Assembly (NCBI GenBank): GCA_947450325.1
Contig: CANFUT010000024.1
Coordinates: forward strand, 1 to 64,000
Direction: 5' to 3'
DNA length: 64,000 bases
Source: Flavobacteriia bacterium
Lineage (GTDB): Bacteria > Bacteroidota > Bacteroidia > Flavobacteriales_D > Crocinitomicaceae
Position 1 is the first letter of the stretch. Every line of letters begins with the position of its first letter. Below, piece after piece: positions 15,627 to 48,475 of this stretch. Below the pieces are notes generated by a model. The model ran no database searches and was not told the origin of the DNA. It saw only the letters and a program-made list of their open reading frames with translations. The translations under genes and the position numbers were made by a program.

Positions 15627-18600
15627 CTATTTCGTTTTTACAATTCTAACTCTAGAAATTGATTCATTGCTTGAAATTTCAACAGAATAGATACCATCTG
15701 CGCAATGTTGAATATTTATATCAACTTGATTTTGATTGTTTTCAATTTTTATTTCTCTCACCAATTTTCCTGACATGTCGAATACTTTTACAGATTGAAT
15801 CGGATTTTTAATTCCTGAAATAGTGAAAGTACCATCATTTGGATTTGGATATATGGTGAAGTTATTTTTATTCAAATCTTCAACGCTCGCGCATCCAACA
15901 GTGATACTTTGCTGTGCTTGAGCGCTGCAGCCATTCACGTCAGTAAATGTATATGTAATTGTGAATGTACCTAATCCAGCTAACGCAGGGTCAAATTGAT
16001 TTGAAACAACTCCAGGACCAGAATAAGTGCCGCCTACAGGAGAACCACCGCTTAGATTGAATTTTGGAGAATTAACACAAACTGACGATAAAGCATTTAA
16101 AGATACACTTGGCACAGTTAATGGGGCAGAAGTAACAGTTGTTGTAGAACTTAAACATCCATTTACCGTTTGATACACATCATAATTTCCAGCATTTGTA
16201 ACTGAAATACTATTTGTTGTTGCGTTATTTGACCAATGTAAAGTTCCACTTGTGGTTGAACTCAAAGTTGTTGAACCGCATAAATTAGTAACTGTTACAA
16301 CTGGTGCACTAGGAATGGTTTTAGGTGCTGCTTGAATCGAAGCAATTGGTGAATTACAACCGTTCAATGATTGTGTAGCTGTAATTGTTCCTGCAGTAGC
16401 AACTGTAATTTGAGATGTCGTTTCAGTTGTTGACCAAACTAGATTGACATTTGAAGCAGAAGAAACAACTGAATTACCGCAATTATTAATAACACTTAAT
16501 GTTGGTGAAGCTGGAGTTGGATTTAAAGTGATTGGTTGATTACTCGCTGCTGAAGCACCACAAGTATTATTCGCTACCACTGATACATTTCCTGCAGTTG
16601 AGCCGAAAGTAATCGTTGCAGATGTTGTTCCTTGTCCAGCTGTTATTGTTGAACCAGCAGGAGCAGACCAAGTGTAACTTGTAGCACCTGAAACAGTAGG
16701 AATTGAATAAACATTTCCAGTAGTTCCTGAGCAAAGTGTATTTGTGCCTGAAATTGCTCCTGGAGTAGCAGTTGTTCCGTTAATTGTGATTGAATTGGTT
16801 TGTGTACTGGTGTTTGTCCCAAAAGCATTTGTTGCAACCAATGAAACTGTATAAACTCCCGGAGTTGAATACGTAACTGTTGGATTTGTTGCAGTTGAAG
16901 TTGCTGGTGTTCCACCTGTAAAGGTCCAATTGTAAGCAGTTGGTGTACCTGTTGAAGTATTTGTAAAAGTAATTACTTCACCTGTACAAGCTGTGCTAGT
17001 TGAACTTGTATAACTTGCAACAGGAGGAGTTGAAGCAACAACACCAGTTAAATTGATATTATCGACAAACAAGCGATTACCATTTCCTGACAAGTTTTTA
17101 AAAGCAACAATCACTGAAGGATTTCCAACATAAGCAGTCAAATCAACCGTTTCAGTTCTCCATTGAGATGATGTCGGTGTGAAATTAGTAGTTGTATTCG
17201 GTGCAGTTGCTAAAACTGCACCAGATTTGCTGTAAACAGAAGTAAAAGTTTGTCCACAATCAGTTGAAACAGATACATCTAAACCGTCAAAATAAGTTGC
17301 ACTGTATTGCGCGTAAGCCACATCGAATTGAAGTTGAGCAGAAGCCAAGCCGGTAAAAATTGCACTTGGCATTCTTACTTGATCGTCATCAGCATCATTG
17401 TAATTGTTGTTATCAAACATCATTGAATTTCCAGTAGTTGGAGCATTTCCAATGGTTGCAGACCTTGCCCAAGTAGTTGGGGAATTATTTGCATTCACTA
17501 AAGACCAGTTTGTAGGAACAAAAGTAGTTGCAGTGAATCCTTCAATGATTGGAAGTGCTACAGCTGTTGAACCAAGAGCAGTTATGTAGTTTGTTTTTAC
17601 TTCTGGATCAGAACCACTCGCATTTGTTGCTGTTAAAGTGATTGTGTAAACTCCAGCAGTATTGAATGTTACTGTTGGATTTTGTAAAGTTGATGTTGAT
17701 GGAGTAGCACCGGCGCCAAAATTCCATAACCAACTTGTAGTATTTGTTGACAAATCTGTAAATGTAACAGGCGTGCCAGCGCATGAAGATAATGGTGTTG
17801 CTGAAAAGTTCGCAACTGGAGGTGCAGCAGCTGAAACTCCATTTAAGGTAAAATTGTAAGTTGACTCATCACAATCGTTTGTGGCAAATGAAACATTTCC
17901 TGTGTATGTTCCTGCTACAGTTGGATTGAAAGTTACTGTGAAAGTAGTTGTTGCACCAGCAGCTACCGTAGTAGTTCCAAAAGTTGAACCAAGTACAAAA
18001 CCAGTGCCAGTAACTGTTATTGGTGCAGTTAATACCAAATTAGAAGTTCCTGAATTGGTAATAGTAAAAGTTGCTGTAGATGTTCCTCCAGGACTTACTG
18101 AACCATAGTTATATGAACCTCCATCCAAAATGTCACTTGTATTTTGAGTAACATTTATTTCACCTGGAGTTGTGGCATTAAATTTAATATTGTCAATGAA
18201 TAAATTATTTCCATTTGCAGCAATAGCTCTAAATCTAAATTGAATATTAGATGAAGTTCCAGAAACGAATGATAATAAACTGATTGTTTCATTTCTCCAA
18301 TCTGTTGAAGCTGTTGGATACCAGTCTGCAGTTGCTAGAGTTGTACTAGTAGCAAGCGTAGCACCACTTTTATTGTAAATAGGAGTAGAATTCCAAGTAG
18401 CTCCACAATCTGCTGAGATGTCTACAAAAAGTTGTTCATTGGTTGAAGTTGTTCTTCTTCTATAAGCAACATCAAATTGGATATTTGCAGCAGAAGCGTT
18501 GCATGGTAATATAAAAATAGGTGTGATCAATGATTCCGTTTGAGCAGTTGAATTTCCAAACATTGGAACTTCGGCAATATTATTGGCAAATACACCCGCA

Positions 18601-20138
18601 CTTGATACGCCTGATGCACCAACCCAATAAAAACAATCAGTACCTCCATTTGTTACTTGCCATCTTACATCAGGTGGAAAAACAGAACCGTCAAAATTTT
18701 CAGTAAATGGGGCCATTACTCCATTTGAAACAACAAATGAAATCCCAGAAGTATCATAAGTAACAGCTTGGTCAGCTGAACCATTTGGAAGTGTAGACCA
18801 TGCTTTAAATGAATGTGTTCCTAAAGTAGTCGTAAATGAATTTAAGTTAACATTTGCCGTTGAGTTTGGTGTTAAAGTTCCTGTCCAGTTGAAAGTTGAA
18901 ATGGTACCATTATCAATTGAATACGAAATTGTTGCAGAGGTTAAGTTACTTGAACCTCTATTTTTCAAAACTACTGAAGGTGATAAAGAGCCCGCACAAT
19001 TGTCTCCCTTTGGGTTTAATACATCTATCACAGAAGCGTCATTTGCAATTGGAGGAGTACAAGCATCAGAATTAATTAAACTTACTCTTAATGGACTGTT
19101 TTCTAGTACAGTCCTCATTCTCATTTTTTGATCTTGCGTGAAAATATTCATACACAAATCGTCTGTATAATCCATGTAATTTTCAATCATGTCGACTCCA
19201 GCATCAGGTGCAGTGGTACAAGAGTTGGTTCCAGTTGGACAACCGTAATTGGCTGCTGCAGATTCAGGAGTATCATTACAATAGTCATCGACAGTACAAC
19301 CGCCATCACCCCAAATATGGCGTAAACCTAACCAGTGACCAATTTCATGAGTTGCAGTTCTTCCTTCATTATAAGGAGCAGCAAAACCAGTAACTGAACT
19401 TTTTCCAATAGAACTGTAAAGAAAAACAACTCCATCTGTTGAAGCTACAGGTGAAGCACATCCCATTCCACCTAAAGGAGATTGAGGAAATTGAGCATAA
19501 CCCAAAATTCCACCAGAAATATCACACAACCAAATGTTCATGTATTTGGCAGGATCCCAACCTCTTGTTGCAGTTGGAGTATTGTTGTTGTATGTCCAAG
19601 GTTTTATTGTTGCATCAATAAAAGTAGTTGAATATGGAGGAGCTGTAGTTGTAATTGAAGAATATAAAATACGATTCACTCCAGGTTGACCAGCTGCAAA
19701 AGCTGAGCCATCAGGTCTTCTTTGTGCCAAGCAAAATTCAATTTTTGTATCCGCACCAACGGCATTTGTATTCCAGCCATTCGAGCCCAACATTCTTCTG
19801 AAATCTTCATTTAGCACATCAATTTGTGATTGAATAGCAGCAAAAGAAACGTTTGTACCAACACCAACTGCTTCACCACTGTGAATTACATGCACCACTA
19901 CAGGAATATAGTAAACGCCACCGATAATTTTAGATGCGGTATTTGTTTGCATTTCATTACTGAGCCAGTTTTCAAATTCAGCTTTTGAATTAATTCCTGG
20001 ATTATTCATTTTCAAAATAGAATCCATTTCATCTGTAAAACAACGGACAACATTTTGAGAAAAAGCAGCATTTATCGAAATAGAGAAAAATGATAAAAGC
20101 GCTATTAATTTAAAAGAAATAAGTTTTTTAAAATTCAT
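15627..20138 (-). CDS. Large secreted M43-family metalloprotease with T9SS sorting domain
   Basis: 1503 residues. A signal peptide (about 1-27) precedes an M43 (pappalysin/cytophagalysin-like) peptidase with the zinc motif H264-E265-IG-H268-WLGLR-H274 and the following Met-turn MENYMDY. Next come a CARDB-like domain (about 365-470), two choice-of-anchor-J-like modules (about 480-660 and 850-1030), a choice-of-anchor-D-like module, two PKD domains and Ig-like Thr/Ser-rich repeats. The last 75 or so residues (FTIYPNPNDGTFTISG) are a type A T9SS signal. The protein is likely exported and cell-attached, degrading extracellular protein. It has its own terminator. Confidence 0.93.
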   Translation of the reverse strand: MNFKKLISFKLIALLSFFSISINAAFSQNVVRCFTDEMDSILKMNNPGINSKAEFENWLSNEMQTNTASKIIGGVYYIPVVVHVIHSGEAVGVGTNVSFAAIQSQIDVLNEDFRRMLGSNGWNTNAVGADTKIEFCLAQRRPDGSAFAAGQPGVNRILYSSITTTAPPYSTTFIDATIKPWTYNNNTPTATRGWDPAKYMNIWLCDISGGILGYAQFPQSPLGGMGCASPVASTDGVVFLYSSIGKSSVTGFAAPYNEGRTATHEIGHWLGLRHIWGDGGCTVDDYCNDTPESAAANYGCPTGTNSCTTAPDAGVDMIENYMDYTDDLCMNIFTQDQKMRMRTVLENSPLRVSLINSDACTPPIANDASVIDVLNPKGDNCAGSLSPSVVLKNRGSSNLTSATISYSIDNGTISTFNWTGTLTPNSTANVNLNSFTTTLGTHSFKAWSTLPNGSADQAVTYDTSGISFVVSNGVMAPFTENFDGSVFPPDVRWQVTNGGTDCFYWVGASGVSSAGVFANNIAEVPMFGNSTAQTESLITPIFILPCNASAANIQFDVAYRRRTTSTNEQLFVDISADCGATWNSTPIYNKSGATLATSTTLATADWYPTASTDWRNETISLLSFVSGTSSNIQFRFRAIAANGNNLFIDNIKFNATTPGEINVTQNTSDILDGGSYNYGSVSPGGTSTATFTITNSGTSNLVLTAPITVTGTGFVLGSTFGTTTVAAGATTTFTVTFNPTVAGTYTGNVSFATNDCDESTYNFTLNGVSAAAPPVANFSATPLSSCAGTPVTFTDLSTNTTSWLWNFGAGATPSTSTLQNPTVTFNTAGVYTITLTATNASGSDPEVKTNYITALGSTAVALPIIEGFTATTFVPTNWSLVNANNSPTTWARSATIGNAPTTGNSMMFDNNNYNDADDDQVRMPSAIFTGLASAQLQFDVAYAQYSATYFDGLDVSVSTDCGQTFTSVYSKSGAVLATAPNTTTNFTPTSSQWRTETVDLTAYVGNPSVIVAFKNLSGNGNRLFVDNINLTGVVASTPPVASYTSSTSTACTGEVITFTNTSTGTPTAYNWTFTGGTPATSTATNPTVTYSTPGVYTVSLVATNAFGTNTSTQTNSITINGTTATPGAISGTNTLCSGTTGNVYSIPTVSGATSYTWSAPAGSTITAGQGTTSATITFGSTAGNVSVVANNTCGASAASNQPITLNPTPASPTLSVINNCGNSVVSSASNVNLVWSTTETTSQITVATAGTITATQSLNGCNSPIASIQAAPKTIPSAPVVTVTNLCGSTTLSSTTSGTLHWSNNATTNSISVTNAGNYDVYQTVNGCLSSTTTVTSAPLTVPSVSLNALSSVCVNSPKFNLSGGSPVGGTYSGPGVVSNQFDPALAGLGTFTITYTFTDVNGCSAQAQQSITVGCASVEDLNKNNFTIYPNPNDGTFTISGIKNPIQSVKVFDMSGKLVREIKIENNQNQVDINIQHCADGIYSVEISSNESISRVRIVKTK

Positions 20139-20369: not shown

Positions 20370-21362
20370 ATGAAAATTATATCTGCAATATTTTTGATCA
20401 TTTCATTAAATTCTTTCAGTCAAAATGAACCTTTTTATTTTGAAGGAAATGCTCAAGGAACTACTTTCCACATTACCTATTTTGACTCACTAGAGAGGGA
20501 TTTTCAAATAGAGGTTTTAACTATTTTAGATGATTTTGATCAATCACTTTCGACCTATCTTCCCAATTCAATTATTTCTAGAATTAATCGAGGTGAGGAA
20601 AATGTAAAGGTGGATAAGTATTTTATTACTTGTTTTAATCAAGCAAAGGAAATTTGGAAAAGTACGAAGGGAAATTTTGACCCAACTGTATATCCATTAG
20701 TAAATGCGTGGGGATTTGGACCTGGAAAAAAGCAAAAAATTGAGCAAAAATTGATAGATAGTTTATTGCAATTTGTTGGATTTGAATTGATCGAATTAAA
20801 AGGAGAATATATATTCAAAAAAGACGCAAGAGTTGCATTAGATTTCAATGCTTTTGCACAAGGATATTCTGTTGACGTTGTTTCTGATTTCTTTAAAAGT
20901 AAAGGGGTTACATCATTTATTGTTGAAATTGGGGGTGAAGTTTATGCAAACGGCAAACAGGCAGATGGGAAAGATTGGTTAATAGGCATTGAACAACCCT
21001 ATGACAACAAAGAAACAGGGAATCCTTTGAAAGAAATTATCAAGTTGAATAATTTGGCAGTTGCAACTTCAGGTAATAATCGAAGATTTTTTGTTGAAAA
21101 TGGAGTGAAATACGCACATCACATTGATCCGAAAACTGGTTATCCAGCAAAAAACACACTTTTGAGTGCTTCAATTTTTGCAGAAAAATGCATTGTTTCG
21201 GATGCCACTGCAACTGGTTTGTTGGTGATGGGATTGGAAAAAGCTAAAAAATATTTTAAGAAACATAAAGAAATCCAAGCATATTTAATATATTCTGATG
21301 ACAAAGGAAATTTTCAAATTTATGAAACTTCAGGTTTTAGAAAATTGGTTTATCAGGAATAA
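20370..21362 (+). CDS. apbE: FAD:protein FMN transferase (ApbE family)
   Basis: 330 residues with a signal peptide ending near NSFSQ. ApbE motifs follow: GNAQGTTFHITYFDS, the DQSLSTYLPNSIIS region, ALDFNAFAQGYSVD, VEIGGEVYANG, and the metal-binding HHIDPKTGYPA plus DATATGLLVMG. ApbE transfers FMN from FAD onto Thr residues of partner proteins in the periplasm (for example NqrB/C or FMN-binding domains). It converges on a DUF2271-like gene, and both share a bidirectional terminator. Confidence 0.93.
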   Translation: MKIISAIFLIISLNSFSQNEPFYFEGNAQGTTFHITYFDSLERDFQIEVLTILDDFDQSLSTYLPNSIISRINRGEENVKVDKYFITCFNQAKEIWKSTKGNFDPTVYPLVNAWGFGPGKKQKIEQKLIDSLLQFVGFELIELKGEYIFKKDARVALDFNAFAQGYSVDVVSDFFKSKGVTSFIVEIGGEVYANGKQADGKDWLIGIEQPYDNKETGNPLKEIIKLNNLAVATSGNNRRFFVENGVKYAHHIDPKTGYPAKNTLLSASIFAEKCIVSDATATGLLVMGLEKAKKYFKKHKEIQAYLIYSDDKGNFQIYETSGFRKLVYQE

Positions 21363-21390
21363 AAAAAGGCAACCCGAAAGCTGCCTTTTT
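21363..21390. terminator. Bidirectional terminator between apbE and the DUF2271-like gene
   Basis: Nine-base perfect arms, aaaaaggca and tgccttttt, flank a 10-base loop. The A and T runs allow it to act in both directions for the two convergent genes. Confidence 0.88.
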
Positions 21391-21408
21391 AAATTAAATT
21401 ATTGTGAT

Positions 21409-22215
21409 TTATTTATTCAATGTCACTTTAATTTTTGAAGACTTAACTCCATCAGTTACTTGAATGAAGTAAATTCCATTACTCATTTCTGACAAATTAA
21501 CTGATTTTGTTCCGCTTTCAACATCTAAATCCTCATTTGAAATAACAACACCTTGTAAATTAATTACTTTGATATTGTTAGCTTTCAAATAATCAACATT
21601 GAAAATACCATTTGTACTAGGATTTGGATAAACGTTTACACCTGTAAGCTCAGTTTGATTTTCTTCAATTCCAGCTGCTGACGCCTTCCAATTTAATGAT
21701 ATTCCAGTAAAATTTCCATCGGCAGTTGGTGTTTGATTGTCATCAACTGCACCTTTGTTGAAAGTGAAAGATCTAGTTACAGTTCCTGAAGAACCGTGAT
21801 TCCAAGTTTCTTGAATTGTTACTTTATAAATACCGTCTGGTAAAAGTGTACCAGCTGTGTTTTTTCCATCCCAAGTGATTGTTTTTGTTGTTGCTCCTGA
21901 AAGCGTTGAACCTGTCACAGCACTAACAACATTGCATGAGCTAGATAAGCAATTTGATGAAGAACCACCAGAGTTAGAAGCCCAAGTTGGTAAATGATCA
22001 CTTGTACCTCCACCTGCATAACGTAATTTTGTTTTAACGAACGCACCAGAATTGTCCTGAATCCAAACTGTTAAAACATTTCTTGTTCCTGAATATCCAC
22101 TGTGAGCAACAGTAGTAAAGGTGAAAGATAAGTTTCCAGTAGCTTGCGCATTTACTGAGTTTGTTGCCAATAAAAGCAATAAAACAGCAGTTGATTTAAT
22201 TAAATTTTTTTTCAT
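21409..22215 (-). CDS. DUF2271-like secreted protein with T9SS sorting domain
   Basis: 268 residues. A signal peptide (1-24, ending VNAQA) precedes a domain of about 150 residues with FTFTTVAHSGYSGTRNVLTVW and later TWDGKNTAGTLLPDGIYKVTI, a FlgD/DUF2271-like beta fold. A type A T9SS signal (VNVYPNPSTNGIFNVDY to the end) follows. In other bacteria, as I recall, DUF2271 genes sit beside ApbE-type flavin transferases and PepSY reductases; here ApbE is the convergent neighbour. The export route is visible, but the function is not known. Confidence 0.8.
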   Translation of the reverse strand: MKKNLIKSTAVLLLLLATNSVNAQATGNLSFTFTTVAHSGYSGTRNVLTVWIQDNSGAFVKTKLRYAGGGTSDHLPTWASNSGGSSSNCLSSSCNVVSAVTGSTLSGATTKTITWDGKNTAGTLLPDGIYKVTIQETWNHGSSGTVTRSFTFNKGAVDDNQTPTADGNFTGISLNWKASAAGIEENQTELTGVNVYPNPSTNGIFNVDYLKANNIKVINLQGVVISNEDLDVESGTKSVNLSEMSNGIYFIQVTDGVKSSKIKVTLNK

Positions 22216-22354: not shown

Positions 22355-23392
22355 TTAATCTTTTAACTTTTTTTCAATTTTCTCCTTAAAATTCTCATAA
22401 TTTTCTTCACCAGGAATAAATTCTAATGCCAAGTTTATATTTGCCAGTGCATCGCTGTACTTTTTGTTTTGAAAATTGATGAGTGCTAAACCATAAAATG
22501 CAACATGATTGGTCTTGTTTTTTTGAATAACAGTTTCAAAATATTTTTTGGAAGTTTGACAATCGTTCAAATAAAAATTGGTAAAACCATGTATAATTAA
22601 ATCTTTGGTGGTTTGATTTTCTGTATTCAAGTTCGAGTTGAATTGTGTCAACAATGGTTTGAAATTTTTGGTTTTGTGCTTAGCATTGTGACTTTTCAAA
22701 TATTGAATACCAAAAGTAGGGTTGATGTTAATTGCTTTAAGAATGGTTTGAAAAGATCGTTCAAAATTTTGTAATTCAGCGTATATAAAAGCTTGAAAAT
22801 ACAATGTTTGGACATCTGACGAATCAATTTTTAATGCTAAGTCTAGTTCTTTTTGAGCTTCAACATAACTGTTCAATTGAATTTTTGCCCAAGCATCGTG
22901 AGCTAATGCAGGTGCATTTTCTGGATTGATTTCTATTGCATCTTTAAAATCTTGTTGAGATTCCTTAATTCGACCAATTCTTAATTTATCTCTTCCAAGA
23001 AAAAAGTGTGCGTCTGAATTGCCAAAATCAAATTTGATCGCAGCTTCATAATCGATAATTGCACCTTCAAAATCTTCAAGATGGTCTTTAACGATTCCTC
23101 GGAGGAAATAACTATCTGCGTTGGTAGTATCAAATTTGATTTGTGCTGTAAAGTCGGCAATTGCTCCATCGTAATCTCGCATCATTTTTTTGACCAAACC
23201 TCTGTCGAAATATGCTAATGAATCTTGTTTGAAATTTTCAATTACATAAGTGAAATAGCTTATCGCAGCCTCATAATTCTTCTTTTGAACATTTTCAACT
23301 GCTATTGCAATGTATTCTTCTTTGGTTTTTTGAGCTTGTAAATTAATTTGAAAAATAATTGACAATAGTAGCGTTATAACTAATCTTTTCAT
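22355..23392 (-). CDS. TPR-repeat protein, exported
   Basis: 345 residues. A signal peptide (1-20, ending NLQAQ) is followed by about eight tetratricopeptide repeats of 34 residues with the usual A-x-x-x-Y/F-G and P/A patterns (for example AYFDRGLVKKMMRDYDGAIADFTAQI). TPR solenoids bind partner proteins; none can be named. The gene is followed on the same strand after a gap of over 130 bases by no close partner, while the 25-residue-repeat gene lies 15 bases upstream, so they may share a transcript. Confidence 0.85.
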   Translation of the reverse strand: MKRLVITLLLSIIFQINLQAQKTKEEYIAIAVENVQKKNYEAAISYFTYVIENFKQDSLAYFDRGLVKKMMRDYDGAIADFTAQIKFDTTNADSYFLRGIVKDHLEDFEGAIIDYEAAIKFDFGNSDAHFFLGRDKLRIGRIKESQQDFKDAIEINPENAPALAHDAWAKIQLNSYVEAQKELDLALKIDSSDVQTLYFQAFIYAELQNFERSFQTILKAININPTFGIQYLKSHNAKHKTKNFKPLLTQFNSNLNTENQTTKDLIIHGFTNFYLNDCQTSKKYFETVIQKNKTNHVAFYGLALINFQNKKYSDALANINLALEFIPGEENYENFKEKIEKKLKD

Positions 23393-33705: not shown

Positions 33706-34665
33706 ATGAAGAAGATTGTATTTACTGCTTGTTTCGCATCAATTTCGATGTTCTCAAGCGCACAATTCATAACTTTTGAGAGTTTAACTTTGCCACAGGC
33801 AGAATCGTATTACAACGGTTCAGATGGAGCTGGTGGTTTTGATGCAATGGGAATTTATTTTTCCAACGAGTACACCCAAGCTGGTGACTATTGGAGTGGT
33901 TTTGTTTATTCAAATTTGACTGATGTCACAACTCCTGGCTATGCCAATCAATACAGTGCTTTTTCTGGTTCTGGAGCAGATGCTAGTGAAAAATATGCCA
34001 TTTGCTATCCAGCAGGTAAAATAACCTTTCCTCAACTTGGAATGCCTCAAACAATAAAAATCACCAACACTACTTACGCAGGCATTTCCATGCGAGACGG
34101 AGATTCTTACGCCAAAAAATTTGGTTCACTAAATAATGCACAAGGTTTACCTGACGGAACCAATGGAGAAGATTTTTTTAAGCTGACTATCAATGGATTG
34201 AATTTTTCTAATGAAATAGTAGGTTCAATTGATGTTTATTTAGCGGATTTTCGATTTGCTGACAATAGCCAAGATTTTATTTTAAATACTTGGAAATCTG
34301 TTGATTTGACTTCATTGGGAAATGTCTACGGTTTGAGTTTTGATTTGCAATCAACTGATATTGGAGATTTTGGTATGAATACACCTGCCTATTTTGCGTT
34401 AGATGATTTGTATTTTATTCCACTAGAAAGTATTGCGGAACAAGCAAAACAAGATTTTAAAGTTTTCCCGAATCCAATCAACGATTGGTTGACGATTCAA
34501 GGTGGAAATGGCAAAGTTCAAATTGTTGATCTAACTGGAAAAGTAATTCAATCGTTTGAGCACCAAGAATTTTCTAAAATAAACGTTTCCAATTTAGAAT
34601 CAGGAACTTATTTTGTTCAAATGACAGAAGATGGAATTATTTCTTCTCAGAAATTGGTCAAATAA
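33706..34665 (+). CDS. T9SS-sorted DUF4465-like surface protein of the cobalamin operon
   Basis: 319 residues. A signal peptide (1-20, ending SSAQF) precedes a beta-sandwich region of about 220 residues. Its markers FESLTLPQAESYYNGSDGAGGF, YFSNEYTQAGDYWSGFVYS and the closing YFALDDLYF are characteristic, in my recollection, of the DUF4465 family often found in Bacteroidota cobalamin loci. A type A T9SS signal (FKVFPNPINDWLTIQGG to the end) replaces the lipoprotein signal used by gut relatives. It is the first gene after the riboswitch, probably a surface corrinoid-binding protein. Confidence 0.8.
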   Translation: MKKIVFTACFASISMFSSAQFITFESLTLPQAESYYNGSDGAGGFDAMGIYFSNEYTQAGDYWSGFVYSNLTDVTTPGYANQYSAFSGSGADASEKYAICYPAGKITFPQLGMPQTIKITNTTYAGISMRDGDSYAKKFGSLNNAQGLPDGTNGEDFFKLTINGLNFSNEIVGSIDVYLADFRFADNSQDFILNTWKSVDLTSLGNVYGLSFDLQSTDIGDFGMNTPAYFALDDLYFIPLESIAEQAKQDFKVFPNPINDWLTIQGGNGKVQIVDLTGKVIQSFEHQEFSKINVSNLESGTYFVQMTEDGIISSQKLVK

Positions 34666-34686
34666 CATTTGCTGTAGATTTTGATT

Positions 34687-36708
34687 ATGTGTAAATCATT
34701 CGTTTTTATGTTTTTGATACTTGCTTCTTCGGCTTCCTTTGCCCAGAGATTGGACCATCAATTGGATACACTCGAGGTGATCGATTTGCGCATGGAAAAC
34801 GAAAATTTACAAGTTCAAAAATTGAACAAAGCACAAATTACAGCGTTGCAACCAGAAGACGTAGGCCAGTTGTTGCAACGCTTCGTAGGTGTTTCCTTGA
34901 AAAGTTACGGCGGTTTGGGCGGGATGAAAACCATTTCTGTCCGAGGAATCAATGGAAATCAAACAGGAATTGTTGTGGACGGTTTTTCGTTGCAAAATGC
35001 GCAAACAGGACAACTTGATTTCAGTAATATCCAGACTGAAAGCATTGAGAAAATTACACTTTCTATTGGTGGTTCACAAGGATTTTTAAATCCGATTTCT
35101 GCATTAATCGGAGGCAGTTGTTTGAGCATCGAAACGTTTGAAAGTACTTTTGGAATGCCAACATATCAAGTTCGATCAGCCTTAAAGGGCGGTTCTTTCG
35201 GACAAATTGATTCCTATTTGGCGGTGAAAATGAACAATCAACGCAGTTTTTTCTCCTTGATGGGTAAATATCGCGAAGCCAATGGTAAATATAATTTTGA
35301 AATTGAAAATGGAAATCAATTGTATCAAGGAAAACGAATCAACAATGATTTTAAAGAAGGATTTGGCGGTTTTTCATCAGGATTTAGAATAGGGAAGAAA
35401 AGTATTTTTAGAATCAACGATCAATTCAATCAATCTGATAAAGGACTTCCGGGCGCAGTGATTTTATACAATACGATTTCTAATCAGCGATTGAAAAATG
35501 TAACAAATCAAGTTAACGTTGATTTTACAAGATTTGATCAAATTTTTCCTTTCAGAGTTTATGCTTCCATGCGCAATGAACAATTGATTTACATTGATTC
35601 AACTTATTTAAATACTGCGGGTTATTTGGATAATAGATATTACAACACTCACTTTGTTAATGGATTTTCATTCAGAAAATTGCCAATCAAAAGAAGAGAT
35701 CTGGATTCCATGCAATATGATCTAGAAATTGTAAAAACTAAGAAGTTGAAATTGATTTATTTTGGTGGAATTGAACAAAGTTACAGTTTGTTAAACAGTA
35801 ATTTACCTGCAATTCTAGCTCCTCAACGATATCAATTGAAAGCATTGCTGGGAACAGAAAAGAAATGGAGTAGATCGAATATAATTCTTCAAGTAGGAGA
35901 ACAATATTTTTCAGATAAACAGTCGATCTCAGGAAATAATCTCAAACGATTTGTTTTTACACCTTATGCTTCTTTTCAAACTGAAAAGTGGAGATCTTTT
36001 ATTGGTGGATTGAATTTTTGGGCGAAGCGATCTTTCAGAATTCCAACTTTCAATGAATTGTATTACAATGCTTTGGGGAATTTAAGTTTGAAGCCAGAAA
36101 TCGCTAATCAATTCAATATCGGCAACTTTCATACTTTTTATATCCACAGAAACCAATTGAAGTTTAGATTAGACGCCTATTACAATTTAGTGGAAAATAA
36201 AATTGTCGCCATTCCAACAAAAAATTTATTTGTTTGGTCAATTCAAAATGTGGGCAAAGCGCAGGTTTTTGGTGTTGATTTTCAGTTCAATCACACCAGA
36301 AATTTTTCTGATTTGAAATTAGAAACCAATGTAAATTACTCGTTTCAAAAGGTTGAAGATTTATCCGATAAAAATTCACCAACCTATAAACATCAACTGC
36401 CTTATTTGCCTCAACACACTTTGAATGCAGATTTCACTGTTGTCTACAAATCGAAAAGTGGAATTACGATTTCTGGACTGGCAACTTCTTCTCGCTACGC
36501 ATTGAATGAAAACATCGATGCCAACAAAATCAACGGTTTTTATGTATTTGATGCATCAATTTACCACACTTTTACATTTCCGAAAGCACAAAGTTTAAGA
36601 TTGAGTTTGAATGTCAAAAATTTATTGAATCAATCGTATGCATTCGTCCGATATTATGTGATGCCGGGCACTAATTTTTTAATTTCCTTGAATTATGCAA
36701 TTCATTAA
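34687..36708 (+). CDS. btuB: TonB-dependent outer membrane receptor, BtuB-like
   Basis: 673 residues from the ATG at 34687, 21 bases after the preceding gene. A signal peptide (ending SSASFAQ) is followed by a TonB-box-like LDTLEVIDL and a plug domain (QPEDVGQLLQRFVGVSLKSYGG, then SVRGINGNQTGIVVDGF). A 22-stranded barrel ends in the required aromatic-rich C-terminal strand (NFLISLNYAIH). The riboswitch points to cobalamin or another corrinoid as the cargo. It is co-transcribed with a BtuG-like lipoprotein, whose start overlaps the end of this gene by 14 bases. Confidence 0.9.
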   Translation: MCKSFVFMFLILASSASFAQRLDHQLDTLEVIDLRMENENLQVQKLNKAQITALQPEDVGQLLQRFVGVSLKSYGGLGGMKTISVRGINGNQTGIVVDGFSLQNAQTGQLDFSNIQTESIEKITLSIGGSQGFLNPISALIGGSCLSIETFESTFGMPTYQVRSALKGGSFGQIDSYLAVKMNNQRSFFSLMGKYREANGKYNFEIENGNQLYQGKRINNDFKEGFGGFSSGFRIGKKSIFRINDQFNQSDKGLPGAVILYNTISNQRLKNVTNQVNVDFTRFDQIFPFRVYASMRNEQLIYIDSTYLNTAGYLDNRYYNTHFVNGFSFRKLPIKRRDLDSMQYDLEIVKTKKLKLIYFGGIEQSYSLLNSNLPAILAPQRYQLKALLGTEKKWSRSNIILQVGEQYFSDKQSISGNNLKRFVFTPYASFQTEKWRSFIGGLNFWAKRSFRIPTFNELYYNALGNLSLKPEIANQFNIGNFHTFYIHRNQLKFRLDAYYNLVENKIVAIPTKNLFVWSIQNVGKAQVFGVDFQFNHTRNFSDLKLETNVNYSFQKVEDLSDKNSPTYKHQLPYLPQHTLNADFTVVYKSKSGITISGLATSSRYALNENIDANKINGFYVFDASIYHTFTFPKAQSLRLSLNVKNLLNQSYAFVRYYVMPGTNFLISLNYAIH

Positions 36709-37741
36709 ATATATATTATTAATCAGTTTGTTCGCTGTCTTTTTTTCGTGTAAAAAAGAAAATGAAGAAACGATTGAATCACCTGCAATTTTGAAAAATG
36801 GCATGTTGGTCCTCAATGAAGGATTGTTTCAATTGAATAACGCTAGCTTAACTTGGGTAGATTTTGGTTCAGGAACAACAAATGATCAATTTTTTACCCA
36901 AAAAGCAGGAAGATTGCTCGGTGATACAGGAAATGAAATGCTCCGATACGGAAACAAAATTTACATAGTAGTCAACGTTTCAAGTACAATTGAAGTTTTG
37001 GATGCAATAACAGGAAATTCAATCAAGCAAATTTCTATGCAAGCGAATGGAAATTCAAAACAACCGAGAAGCATTCGTTTTTTTGGTTCAAAAGCATTTA
37101 TTTCTTGTTTTGATGGTTTTGTAGATGTAATGGACACAGCCACTTTTCAAATTGAATCTAGAATTCCAGTTGGATTAAATCCTGATCAAATGACAATTTC
37201 AGGTCAATATTTATTTGTTTCCAATTCAGGAGGTTTGAACGCGCCAGTAATGGATTCAACGATTTCCGTGATTGATATGATTGCAAAATCGGAGTTGACC
37301 AAAATTGTGGTCGGAAAAAATCCAGGTTCGATTGTCACTGACTATGAAGGTGATGTGTATGTTGTCACTAGAGGAAATTATTCTACCATTCCGTCTCGCT
37401 TAAATAAAATCGATCAAGACGAATTTATTGTGCTCGACAGCTACGATTTTGACGCATCAAAAATTACACTGATGAACAACAGATTATTGATTTTGAACAA
37501 CAATAAAGTGATGCTTTTTAATACTGATACAGATCAATTATTGGATGATAATTTTATCAATAACCCTACAATCAACACGCTTTCAAATATGTATTTCAGA
37601 AGTTCAAGTCAGCAGATTTATTTATTTGATTCAAAAGGATATACAAATACTGGAAATATTTTGAAATACAATGTGAATGGAGATTTTATGAGTCAGTACC
37701 ATGTTGGATTAAATCCAAATTCAATCTTGATTTATGATTAG
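36695..37741 (+). CDS. btuG: BtuG-like beta-propeller lipoprotein (DUF5074/YncE-like)
   Basis: 348 residues. MQFIKYILLISLFAVFFSC is a lipoprotein signal with the lipobox Cys at 19. The remainder consists of about seven 40-50-residue repeats typical of a YncE/DUF5074 propeller (for example GNKIYIVVNVSSTIEVLDAITG, GQYLFVSNSGG and TISVIDMIAKSELTKIVVGKNPGSIVTD). In Bacteroides, BtuG is a surface lipoprotein propeller that captures B12 with very high affinity and passes it to BtuB. Position and fold match that role here. Confidence 0.83.
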   Translation: MQFIKYILLISLFAVFFSCKKENEETIESPAILKNGMLVLNEGLFQLNNASLTWVDFGSGTTNDQFFTQKAGRLLGDTGNEMLRYGNKIYIVVNVSSTIEVLDAITGNSIKQISMQANGNSKQPRSIRFFGSKAFISCFDGFVDVMDTATFQIESRIPVGLNPDQMTISGQYLFVSNSGGLNAPVMDSTISVIDMIAKSELTKIVVGKNPGSIVTDYEGDVYVVTRGNYSTIPSRLNKIDQDEFIVLDSYDFDASKITLMNNRLLILNNNKVMLFNTDTDQLLDDNFINNPTINTLSNMYFRSSSQQIYLFDSKGYTNTGNILKYNVNGDFMSQYHVGLNPNSILIYD

Positions 37742-38717
37742 ATTAATTATTTTTTTAGTTGGTTTGATTTCATTCAAAAGTTACAGCCAATCATACGCTC
37801 CAGCAGCCAATCAAATTGGTACAACTGCCATTTCAAAAGACAGCAATATTTTCGTTTCTTGGGCAACGGGAATTGAGTTAAAACGTGGTTTTTTGAATAT
37901 CTCTGATACTAATTTTCAGCTCAATGGAACCAATAAAGTAACTTATGGACTTCCAGAAGCCGCATTGTTTCAAGCGGAAGGCACGAGCGCTGACATCGTC
38001 AGTTTAGGTGATGGAGGAATCGCGACATTGACATTCGAAGCACCGATAAAAAACGACATTGGTCCTGATTTTGCCGTTTTTGAAAATAGTTTTTTATCCA
38101 ACTATTTGGAATTGGCCTTTGTAGAAGTAAGTTCAGATGGAATTCATTTCGTTAGATTCCCTGCGCATACCGAGGTTTCATTTGTCACTCAAATTGGTGG
38201 TTTTGAATTTATTGATTGTCGATATTTGAATAATTTTGCAGGAAAATATGAACAAGGCTATGGAACGCCATTTGATTTGTCAGATTTGCCACAAGATTCC
38301 TTTTTGAACTTGGATTACATCACTCATGTGAGAATCATTGATGTTGTCGGTTCGATTGATTCACATTTTGCAACATACGATAGTTTTGGAAACGTTGTCA
38401 ACGATCCTTTTCCAACACCTTTTGAATCAGGTGGTTTTGATTTAGATGGAGTGGGAGTTATTCATCAAGGAATATTGGGAATAGAAGAAAATTTTCAAAA
38501 TTTCAGTTTTTATCCAAATCCTGCCAAATCTGAAATTTCAATCGCCACATCGGAATATTTCGATATTCAGTTGATTGATCTTTCTGGGAAAATTATTGAT
38601 TCATTTTCGGTTCAAAGTTTCAAGAAAGTTGATTTACAACATCTCGAAAGAGGCGTTTATCTGTTGAATATCAGTTCGAAATCGGGGAGAAGTAGCAGGA
38701 AATTAATTCTGGAATAG
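37734..38717 (+). CDS. T9SS-sorted secreted protein, last gene of the cobalamin operon
   Basis: 327 residues. A signal peptide (ending SFKSYSQS) is followed by a region of about 220 residues containing TSADIVSLGDGGIATLTF, DFAVFENSF and HVRIIDVVGSIDS. This has the look of a calcium-bound lectin-like or PKD-associated surface module, but I recognise no family with certainty. A type A T9SS signal (FSFYPNPAKSEISIA to the end) completes it. The start overlaps the BtuG-like gene by 8 bases. Its role is presumably in surface corrinoid capture, by context only. Confidence 0.7.
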   Translation: MIRLIIFLVGLISFKSYSQSYAPAANQIGTTAISKDSNIFVSWATGIELKRGFLNISDTNFQLNGTNKVTYGLPEAALFQAEGTSADIVSLGDGGIATLTFEAPIKNDIGPDFAVFENSFLSNYLELAFVEVSSDGIHFVRFPAHTEVSFVTQIGGFEFIDCRYLNNFAGKYEQGYGTPFDLSDLPQDSFLNLDYITHVRIIDVVGSIDSHFATYDSFGNVVNDPFPTPFESGGFDLDGVGVIHQGILGIEENFQNFSFYPNPAKSEISIATSEYFDIQLIDLSGKIIDSFSVQSFKKVDLQHLERGVYLLNISSKSGRSSRKLILE

Positions 38718-46457: not shown

Positions 46458-46592
46458 GGTAAAGAAATTGAGGTTACTAAGATAAGCTGAACAAATCGTA
46501 ATCTATGTACGTTTTTAGAATAAATTTTGTATTTTTATAAACTGACTGAAATATTCAACTTTTCAGTGTTTTATTCGTCTTTAAGTAAGATT

Positions 46593-47369
46593 ATGATTTT
46601 TAAAACGAAAAATATTGTTTCATTCGTTGTCCTTATAATTTCTGCTGTGTCAATCAGTAGTTGTAAGAAAGACAAAATTGAAATTATTCCGCCTGTTGTA
46701 GTGAGCGATCAGCTTTCAATTCAAGTTTTACCTTTTTATGGAAGTCAAATCTTATATCTCGATTCAACCTATTTGACAGATGAAGGATACGAAATCCAGT
46801 TTACAGACTTGAAATTCTTTGGTGGAAATTGGAAAAATGGAAATGATATTTTATTTGAATCTGCGATGTTTGATTATCGAAATAATGGTAACAAGTTTTT
46901 GACGGTTAGTAAAAAACCAGATTTATTTGGTTCTTTACAAGGACTTTTGGGGATTGATTCAAGTTTAAATCACGATGATCCAACTGCTTTTGCGAATGAA
47001 AACCCTTTGAATATTGTCAATGCTGGTGATATGCATTGGGGTTGGAATCCGGGATATATTTTCATTAAAGTTGAGGCACGTGTGGATACAATTCAAGATG
47101 GAATTCCACTTTTTGATCATTACGCTGTATTTCATGTTGGAACTGATAATTTTGTTCAAAATTTAGATTTTCCTGATGTAAATTGGACTGCGATAGGTGA
47201 GAAGTCTTTTCAAGCGAACATGAAATTAGACATGCATCAATTTTTATCGAATGCTGGTCAAACGATTAATGTCAAAAATGAATTTATTTCTCATACCGCT
47301 TCTGGACAAGACGTTTTGACATTGAAAGCGATCCAAAACTTCAAATCAGCCTTAAGTTTTATTCCGTGA
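46593..47369 (+). CDS. mbnP: MbnP-family copper-associated lipoprotein
   Basis: 258 residues from the ATG at 46593; the longer frame starts with TTG 22 codons earlier and would delay the signal. MIFKTKNIVSFVVLIISAVSISSC is a lipoprotein signal with the lipobox Cys at about 24. The MbnP signature is present: SLNHDDPTA, then GDMHWGWNPGYIFIKVE with the W-x-W pair, and a late MKLDMHQF. In characterised systems a Trp of MbnP is converted to kynurenine by the di-heme partner MbnH, and the protein binds copper. Its stop overlaps the start of the MbnH-type gene by one base. Confidence 0.88.
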   Translation: MIFKTKNIVSFVVLIISAVSISSCKKDKIEIIPPVVVSDQLSIQVLPFYGSQILYLDSTYLTDEGYEIQFTDLKFFGGNWKNGNDILFESAMFDYRNNGNKFLTVSKKPDLFGSLQGLLGIDSSLNHDDPTAFANENPLNIVNAGDMHWGWNPGYIFIKVEARVDTIQDGIPLFDHYAVFHVGTDNFVQNLDFPDVNWTAIGEKSFQANMKLDMHQFLSNAGQTINVKNEFISHTASGQDVLTLKAIQNFKSALSFIP

Positions 47370-48475
47370 TGAGACCAGAATTCCACCGTTTTATCCAACC
47401 TATTTCCAAGTTCAAATTCGTTTTGATTTTTGGATTAGCGATTGGCATTCTTTGGGCTTGCAAGAAAGATAAAGTGGCTTATGTTCCAACGCCTTATCAA
47501 TTGAAAATTCCTTCACACTTTCCTCAAATGCCTATTCCTGTTGATAATCCAATGACTGTGGAGGGCGTTGCATTGGGAAGAATGCTTTTTTACGAAACAA
47601 AATTGAGTTTAGACAATACGATTTCTTGCGGAAGTTGTCATTCGCCTGAAACTGCTTTTAGTGATTCAAGCCGATATTCCAAAGGTGTAAACGGAACATT
47701 AGGAAATCGTCAGTCGATGGCTTTGGTCAATTTAGGTTGGCAACAATTTTTCTTTTGGGATGGAAGAGCGATTACGCTTGAAGAACAAATTTTACAACCA
47801 GTACCAAATCCTGTTGAAATGCATCAAAGTTGGGATGCAGCAATAGCTAAATTAAATGCAGAAGTTACTTATAAAAATGCGTTCTACAAGGCTTTTGGCG
47901 AAGAAGGATTCGATAAAAATAAAGCAGCTAAAGCAATCGCGCAGTTTTTAAGAACCATGATTTCCGGCAATTCAAAATTTGATGTGATGTATAAAATTGA
48001 AAATGGACTGCCACTTTCAAATTCAGATCAATCTGTCACAATTTCGCCTGAAGAGTGGGGTGGATACGATCTTTTCAAAAGTTTGAATGGCGCTGATTGT
48101 TTTCATTGTCACAACGGACCGTTGATGCAAGTTAAGAAGTTTAGCAACAATGGTTTGGATGCCATTTTTACTGATGAAGGACGAAGAGGAATTACAGGAA
48201 ATATCAACGATTTAGGCAAGTTCAAGGTTCCAACATTGAGAAACATTGAACTTTCAGGTCCTTACATGCACGACGGAAGATTCAAAACATTAGATGAAGT
48301 AATTGAACATTATTCGAGCGGTGTCATTCAATCTCCAACTATTGATCCGCTGATTGAGTTTGCAAGTCAAGGCGGTGTGCAACTTGATGCGGGACAAAAA
48401 GATTTATTGAAGAAATTTTTGCAGACGCTCACTGATTATCAGTTTGTCAATAATCCAGATTTCAGAAAACCATAA
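47369..48475 (+). CDS. mbnH: MbnH-family di-heme cytochrome c peroxidase-like lipoprotein
   Basis: 368 residues from the ATG at 47369 (a GTG lies one codon earlier). The lipoprotein signal ends at IGILWAC. Two heme-c sites follow: CGSCH near residue 90 and CFHCH near residue 246. Between them are the peroxidase-like motifs NLGWQQFFFWDGRA and LRNIELSGPYMHDGRF. MbnH enzymes use high-valent heme chemistry to oxidise a Trp of MbnP. The start codon overlaps the mbnP stop (TGATG), so the two are translationally coupled. Confidence 0.9.
   Translation: MRPEFHRFIQPISKFKFVLIFGLAIGILWACKKDKVAYVPTPYQLKIPSHFPQMPIPVDNPMTVEGVALGRMLFYETKLSLDNTISCGSCHSPETAFSDSSRYSKGVNGTLGNRQSMALVNLGWQQFFFWDGRAITLEEQILQPVPNPVEMHQSWDAAIAKLNAEVTYKNAFYKAFGEEGFDKNKAAKAIAQFLRTMISGNSKFDVMYKIENGLPLSNSDQSVTISPEEWGGYDLFKSLNGADCFHCHNGPLMQVKKFSNNGLDAIFTDEGRRGITGNINDLGKFKVPTLRNIELSGPYMHDGRFKTLDEVIEHYSSGVIQSPTIDPLIEFASQGGVQLDAGQKDLLKKFLQTLTDYQFVNNPDFRKP

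Follow-up and report, generated by a model that had tools for sequence, protein, structure and literature searches.

A convergent ApbE and T9SS-tailed DUF2271 gene pair in Bacteroidota: a candidate surface flavoprotein and its association with cytochrome, YceI and DUF5777 barrel genes

The window, by which we mean the whole 64-kb stretch of DNA that was analysed, carries an ApbE gene facing a gene whose DUF2271 product ends in a type A T9SS tail, and in related loci such pairs recur beside genes for a cytochrome-c-like lipoprotein, a YceI protein and a DUF5777 barrel. The identities of the genes, the dedication of the ApbE, the conserved acceptor and the recurrent partners are computational observations. 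The best explanation for them, which on sequence evidence we hold with somewhat better than even confidence, is that the protein undergoes dedicated flavinylation, is exported to the cell surface by T9SS and works with a cytochrome/YceI/barrel redox relay. The original prediction was of a surface version of a flavin-linked system, and this reading is supported by a DUF2271 match over cut-off, the T9SS tail, a Thr-containing motif and the sole ApbE of the genome. The true partners, however, look like the cytochrome/YceI/barrel set, which lies outside the interval that the prediction covered.

The gene pair and its products

The ApbE gene (P0001, 330 aa) is at 20370-21362 on the + strand, and the DUF2271 gene (P0002, 268 aa), encoding the proposed covalent flavoprotein, is at 21409-22215 on the - strand, both exactly where the original prediction put them. 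The stop codons of the two convergent genes are 46 bases apart, and between them, at 21363-21390, there is a hairpin with a 12-pair stem flanked on both sides by A/T runs, which is likely to be the shared terminator that had been proposed. Compared with shuffled sequences its fold stands out on the - strand (z -4.1, equalled by 0/200 shuffles) and moderately on the + strand (z -2.1, equalled by 5/200); the whole scan for terminator-like sites is not significant, with 5 observed and 4.4 +/- 2.0 expected. Upstream of the DUF2271 gene is a gene for a TPR protein (22355-23392, - strand), which is a recurrent neighbour. The gene adjoining ApbE on its other side (15627-20138, - strand) encodes a 1503-aa M43 metalloprotease with PKD repeats and a T9SS tail.

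The assignment of P0001 is clear, with a match to the Pfam family PF02424 (ApbE) at E 1.4e-80 and, by phmmer, to the solved ApbE structure 6nxi at E 1.7e-51. Its catalytic triad S234/H250/D278 has spacings of 16 and 28, equal to those of S241/H257/D285 in Vc_ApbE, and the N-terminus, judged by eye, is of Sec type without a lipobox Cys.

With regard to P0002, the original description of a DUF2271-like protein that has gained a T9SS tail is borne out for both parts. Residues 31-155 (21751-22125, - strand) match DUF2271 (PF10029) at E 1.6e-8 and 34.8 bits, exceeding the curated cut-off of 27.3, and the C-terminal sorting domain at residues 195-262 (21430-21633, - strand) is recognised by Por_Secre_tail (PF18962, E 2.1e-12) and by the NCBIfam type A tail model TIGR04183 (E 8.8e-11). 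The T9SS translocon protein SprA (TIGR04189) is present in the genome with 2393.8 bits. Residues 110-137 of P0002 also match FlgD_ig (E 6.3e-8). An AlphaFold2 model built with 48 sequences (mean pLDDT 89.4) has a beta-rich domain, a flexible linker at about 183-187 and the T9SS C-terminal domain; the DUF2271 part is predicted as a beta-sandwich with pLDDT mostly >90. The modelled tail resembles solved T9SS C-terminal domains (8glk_D, Z 10.1; 8qb1_A, Z 10.3). In a fold search with the whole model the best matches, apart from T9SS tails, were to multi-Ig proteins and had low TM-scores, and nearly all of the 50 rows fell on residues 184-268, outside the DUF2271 part. A profile search of PDB sequences likewise found solely T9SS tails, FlgD, Ig-like or other weak matches.

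The proposed FMN acceptor

The ApbE of Amantichitinum ursilacus flavinylates the Thr of a [S/T]GA[S/T] motif in its DUF2271 protein (Meheust et al. 2021, PMC8238504, available text), and it is with this experimentally known site that Thr104 of P0002 aligns. The original prediction had suggested looking for a Thr-containing motif in nearby proteins, and it sits inside the DUF2271 protein itself. The aligned motif SAVTGST (residues 98-104; 21904-21924, - strand) ends in TGST and so has Ser instead of Ala at the third position; in the model it lies at and just past a short strand at 100-102. A second motif, an exact SGAT at residues 106-109 (21889-21900, - strand), offers Thr109 as an alternative acceptor, and is absent from the relatives whose sequences were compared. 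We propose that FMN is carried by Thr104 or Thr109.

Thr104 and Gly102 are invariant in 48/48 aligned T9SS-form proteins. The motif is covered in 55 of 60 profile rows, which are domains and include long forms, and reads [S/T]GA[S/T] in 51, TGST in 3 (the window, L049 and L060) and VGAT in 1 (L054), with Thr as acceptor in 54 and Ser in 1. When short DUF2271 proteins of the same family (n=22) are aligned jointly with the T9SS forms, the acceptor column is Thr in 49/49 T9SS forms, and Thr in 17 and Ser in 5 of the short ones. TGST is probably a natural variant, because Ser is found in the Ala column in 6/22 of these short, PepSY-type proteins and TGST itself occurs in relatives. The short genes (L004-L025) encode proteins of 159-183 aa, 16/22 with the exact [S/T]GA[S/T].

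Dedication of the ApbE

The window genome (3.44 Mb, 42 contigs, 99.98% complete) has, by profile searches, exactly one ApbE and one DUF2271 gene, and these are adjacent. It has no match at E 1 to FMN_bind (NqrC/RnfG), no match at E 1 or better to PepSY_TM (PF03929), and for NQR2/RnfD a best score of 9.6 bits against a cut-off of 27.7. A tie of the ApbE to nqr, raised originally as a possible objection, is thereby ruled out, since the single ApbE has neither FMN_bind nor an over-cut-off NQR2/RnfD protein to serve, and the pair has no PepSY partner of the PF03929 kind in this genome. The DUF2271 protein is the sole substrate candidate found because both genes are single and FMN_bind, over-cut-off NQR2/RnfD and PepSY_TM are all lacking. 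It is very probably the only target of this ApbE, and its status as substrate is strong. We infer flavinylation itself, and regard the pair as a putative dedicated flavinylation unit with the same confidence, a little above even, that we give to the explanation as a whole.

Conservation among relatives

In a survey of 240 genomes of the same family we took a match to P0002 of at least 100 bits as a T9SS form; matches below 100 bits were dropped, the next best being at 46.1 and below and mostly confined to the tail. The T9SS form is present in 29/240 genomes, ApbE in 126/240 and FMN_bind in 90/240. ApbE is found in 28 of the 29 T9SS-form genomes, and in 27 it is convergent with and adjacent to the DUF2271 gene on the same contig, with the two matches 70-168 bases apart, which puts the adjacency far beyond chance. 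The two exceptions are G236, which has no ApbE found, is 59% complete and has the gene at a contig end, and G175, which has two ApbEs on other contigs. FMN_bind is absent from 26 of the 29, and present in 81/98 ApbE genomes without the T9SS form. Fisher tests give p 9e-8 for association of the T9SS form with ApbE and p 3e-12 for that with FMN_bind among ApbE genomes, values which ignore genome relatedness and so are not to be read as probabilities.

Four genomes of the same genus (G070-G073) have no ApbE, DUF2271 or FMN_bind, and the system is therefore either dispensable or transferred. Judging from gene content, the pair has been acquired by the species of the window or lost by these congeners.

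For locus comparisons we used 54 T9SS-DUF2271 loci, comprising the window, 27 named loci and 26 from further genomes, with the self-hits L001 and L002 left out and L129 and L130 treated as duplicates of L035 and L036. L100 covers the position of L142 and entered the neighbour clustering only, not the locus counts, and L041 and L052 are two loci of one genome. An ApbE gene is present in 41/54 loci, and is convergent with the DUF2271 gene in 41/41; in the other 13 there is none within the fetched stretch. ApbE was found somewhere in 25/26 of the named genomes searched, G247 being the sole one without. In a maximum-likelihood tree of 59 ApbEs the 41 T9SS-type sequences group together with that of L116, in which the contig ends where the partner gene would stand. 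This group is apart from 7 ApbEs of FMN_bind genomes and 10 with DUF3570-type surroundings (Pfam-confirmed in one, L108), with a support of 86/73, not starred.

Several loci merit separate mention. In G219 the DUF2271-T9SS gene (L142/L100) has two internal TAA stops, with ApbE and the partner set adjoining; G219 further encodes FMN_bind and one more ApbE. There are long DUF2271-like surface proteins of 668-1063 aa with a T9SS tail (L050:8001-10622, L052:7935-11123, L097:901-2904 and L098:2710-4740), the three scanned having the domain fused to SprB, PKD or Ig repeats, and in these proteins the flavin domain apparently serves as a module at the N-terminus. L037 and L048 come from records titled Chitinophaga pinensis and Bifidobacterium breve and have this Bacteroidota system, and the titles look like those of mislabelled bins.

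Recurrent gene partners

Neighbouring genes were compared by all-against-all clustering followed by profile searches. Among the 54 loci a cytochrome-c-like lipoprotein recurs in 26, a DUF5777 barrel in 24, YceI (PF04264) in 24, a TPR protein in 25 and a small hydrophobic membrane protein, which has no Pfam match over cut-off, in 14. In 28 loci, including the window, there is no core partner nearby. The proteins of the cytochrome cluster (n=27) have one CxxCH in 25 cases and none in 2, and none of them is a multiheme cytochrome. The barrel cluster matches PF19089 (DUF5777) at E 1.2e-85, with a further DUF5777 match at E 3.8e-81; its model (10 sequences, mean pLDDT 73.3) has 12 strands of at least 8 residues and in a fold search matches FapF and porins. 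A T9SS protein of Reeler/choice-of-anchor V type is also encoded at three of the loci, and 2 of these 3 proteins contain CxxCH.

Written out as strings, the arrangements of the partners number 15. Contig ends or small ORFs that were missed account for the differences between some of these; at least 6 have distinct gene orders. L132 and L140 have the order barrel, YceI, membrane protein, cytochrome, TPR and DUF2271, facing ApbE. In Flavobacterium silvisoli RD-2-33 (L056) and F. gelidilacus DSM 15343 (L058) the barrel, cytochrome, YceI and DUF2271 flavoprotein genes are consecutive and face the ApbE gene that follows them; F. aquatile LMG 4008 (L059) has the same four without an adjacent ApbE. 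None of the partners is present in 46 control loci (236 kb), which represent ApbEs of other kinds, DUF2271 genes of the short type, further genes with a T9SS tail and a single weak match to NQR2. The comparison is weakened because these loci are on average shorter than the test loci (686 kb).

Within the 64-kb window there is no usable profile match for the cytochrome, barrel, YceI or small membrane protein. A 12.3-bit cytochrome-profile match to an MbnP-like ORF at 46527 and a 15.4-bit Reeler/choice-of-anchor match to a DUF4465 T9SS protein at 33706 were dismissed. The first of these ORFs belongs to a stretch at 46527-48475 (+ strand). Its MbnP-like product matches PF20243 at E 3.1e-16, and after it comes a gene for a di-heme CCP/MauG protein (PF03150, E 1.2e-53), an arrangement resembling an MbnP/MbnH pair. 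The second is in a row at 33706-38717 (+ strand) of consecutive genes for the DUF4465 T9SS-tail protein, a TonB plug receptor, a DUF5074 protein and a further T9SS protein, which is perhaps an uptake system.

The single DUF5777 gene in the 3.44 Mb is on contig 11 (L126), at 77763-78704, in an operon on the - strand with genes for a cytochrome with CTSCH (77354-77725; 19.0 bits against PSCyt1, below the cut-off of 22), YceI (76713-77291) and the membrane protein (76313-76705). As the TPR gene is beside the pair and the other partners are on contig 11, the set of this genome seems to be complete, but split. An integrase-like protein and small mobile-element-like genes, recognised by eye, adjoin the operon (L126:2331-7630), and may have helped to split the set from the pair.

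Proposed mechanism and alternatives

We suggest that Sec would export both ApbE and the DUF2271 protein, and that ApbE in the periplasm would transfer FMN from FAD to Thr104 (or Thr109) of the DUF2271 domain. The folded flavoprotein would then cross the outer membrane via T9SS, to be anchored by its type A tail or released at the surface. It may there exchange electrons with an outer-membrane relay, encoded elsewhere in the genome and consisting of the monoheme cytochrome c lipoprotein, the YceI lipocalin, the small hydrophobic membrane protein and the 12-stranded DUF5777 barrel. Electrons would most likely leave the cell, with the quinone pool as their source and Fe(III), for instance, as their extracellular acceptor. 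The quinone pool is suggested as donor because YceI lipocalins bind ubiquinone-8 (PMC9113575, available text). Reduction of iron is a candidate function in view of the link to iron of PepSY-type DUF2271 operons, which respond to iron limitation in Caulobacter (PMC12004947, available text). In its most specific form this would be an extracellular electron conduit of Bacteroidota, undescribed so far, in which FMN took the part of multiheme cytochromes, with quinone-carrying YceI and the membrane protein passing electrons to a monoheme cytochrome lipoprotein at the barrel, and that in turn exchanging them with the T9SS-exported, periplasm-matured, covalently flavinylated protein. We put this form forward tentatively, as one that has rather less than an even chance of being right.

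The explanation that competes most directly accepts flavinylation but has the cytochrome, YceI and barrel in a separate pathway. The flavoprotein would then work by itself, perhaps as a ferric reductase or short-range oxidoreductase that receives electrons from diffusible shuttles. The location of pair and relay set on different contigs in the window genome, the 28/54 loci with no core partner nearby and the iron-limitation response in Caulobacter (PMC12004947, available text) are consistent with this, but the two sets are joined in 26/54 loci, in at least 6 gene orders, and the window genome has just one DUF5777 gene in its 3.44 Mb. The proximity is therefore unlikely to be due to chance, and we think this explanation improbable. 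Somewhat less probable again is a role in protection of the envelope from oxidants, in which reduced quinone borne by YceI would quench lipid peroxyl radicals while the cytochrome and flavoprotein recycled or relayed electrons, as with BcnA/LcoA of Burkholderia. The recurrence of YceI in 24/54 loci fits, as does the known involvement of a YceI lipocalin and cytochrome b561 in radical detoxification; however the partners here are cytochrome-c-like (CxxCH in 25/27) and not b561, and BcnA is described, in the available part of PMC9113575, without a barrel, ApbE or exported flavoprotein.

It could also be argued that the passenger has no more than a structural part, as an Ig-like domain (FlgD_ig/CHU_C type) in a T9SS adhesin, with ApbE a chance neighbour that has another substrate. 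The FlgD_ig match at residues 110-137 (E 6.3e-8), the homologues in which the domain is fused to repeats of the PKD, Ig and SprB kinds and the altered exact motif of the window protein would all suit an adhesin. However the DUF2271 match spans residues 31-155 and includes the motif, Thr104 and Gly102 are invariant, and in the family survey ApbE is convergent in 27/29 genomes and FMN_bind absent in 26/29, and we consider an adhesin most improbable. The preferred reading remains that of a surface flavoprotein matured by its own ApbE and connected to the cytochrome/YceI/barrel relay.

Relation to known systems

If this reading is correct, ApbE in Bacteroidota can act on redox proteins that end up on the outer surface, and electrons have a candidate way out of the cell for which no multiheme cytochrome is required. 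The presence of the set in cultured Flavobacterium species makes the system testable.

MtrCAB-type porin-cytochrome conduits combine an outer-membrane barrel, a cytochrome and a surface redox protein. The set described here would have the same elements, the barrel being DUF5777 with 12 predicted strands, but differs in that its cytochromes have at most one CxxCH and the surface redox protein would bear flavin and not hemes.

We found no literature on a T9SS-exported flavinylated protein or on this gene set, although the supplementary tables of PMC8238504 may list such loci, and none on DUF5777 or on YceI with ApbE; for ApbE with T9SS we found only a Riemerella Fur study. The available main text of PMC8238504 makes no mention of T9SS, type IX, Bacteroidetes, Bacteroidota, YceI or barrel.

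With BcnA/LcoA the set shares a YceI family protein with a cytochrome partner. In that case the cytochrome is b561, and the available part of PMC9113575 describes no flavinylation or export partner; there is no cytochrome b561 beside YceI among the recurrent neighbour clusters that we scanned. The DUF3570-ApbE systems (PMC8238504, available text) are similar, as the members of the window's family that have them devote an ApbE to a substrate other than FMN_bind, but the window ApbE is in another clade and has a different substrate.

A comparison can also be made with the DUF2271-ApbE-PepSY systems, from which DUF2271 has until now mainly been known as an ApbE substrate, and in which DUF2271 proteins are associated with PepSY-like membrane proteins (PMC8238504, available text). 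The original prediction had this association in other phyla; it stands, but is not confined to them, as the DUF2271 gene of L005, in the same family as the window, adjoins PepSY_TM. L005 is the sole short-DUF2271 locus scanned, and its neighbours encode a PepSY_TM-flavodoxin fusion and an ankyrin protein. As in those systems, DUF2271 would be the ApbE substrate in the window, with Thr or Ser as acceptor at the same aligned position, but the short proteins of the family have no T9SS tail, whereas the window protein has one, in a genome without PepSY_TM and with cytochrome, YceI and DUF5777 as partners. Flavinylation of DUF2271 is already known, but the literature that we searched has no account of a T9SS-exported form that has an ApbE of its own, nor of its link to the cytochrome-YceI-DUF5777 set.
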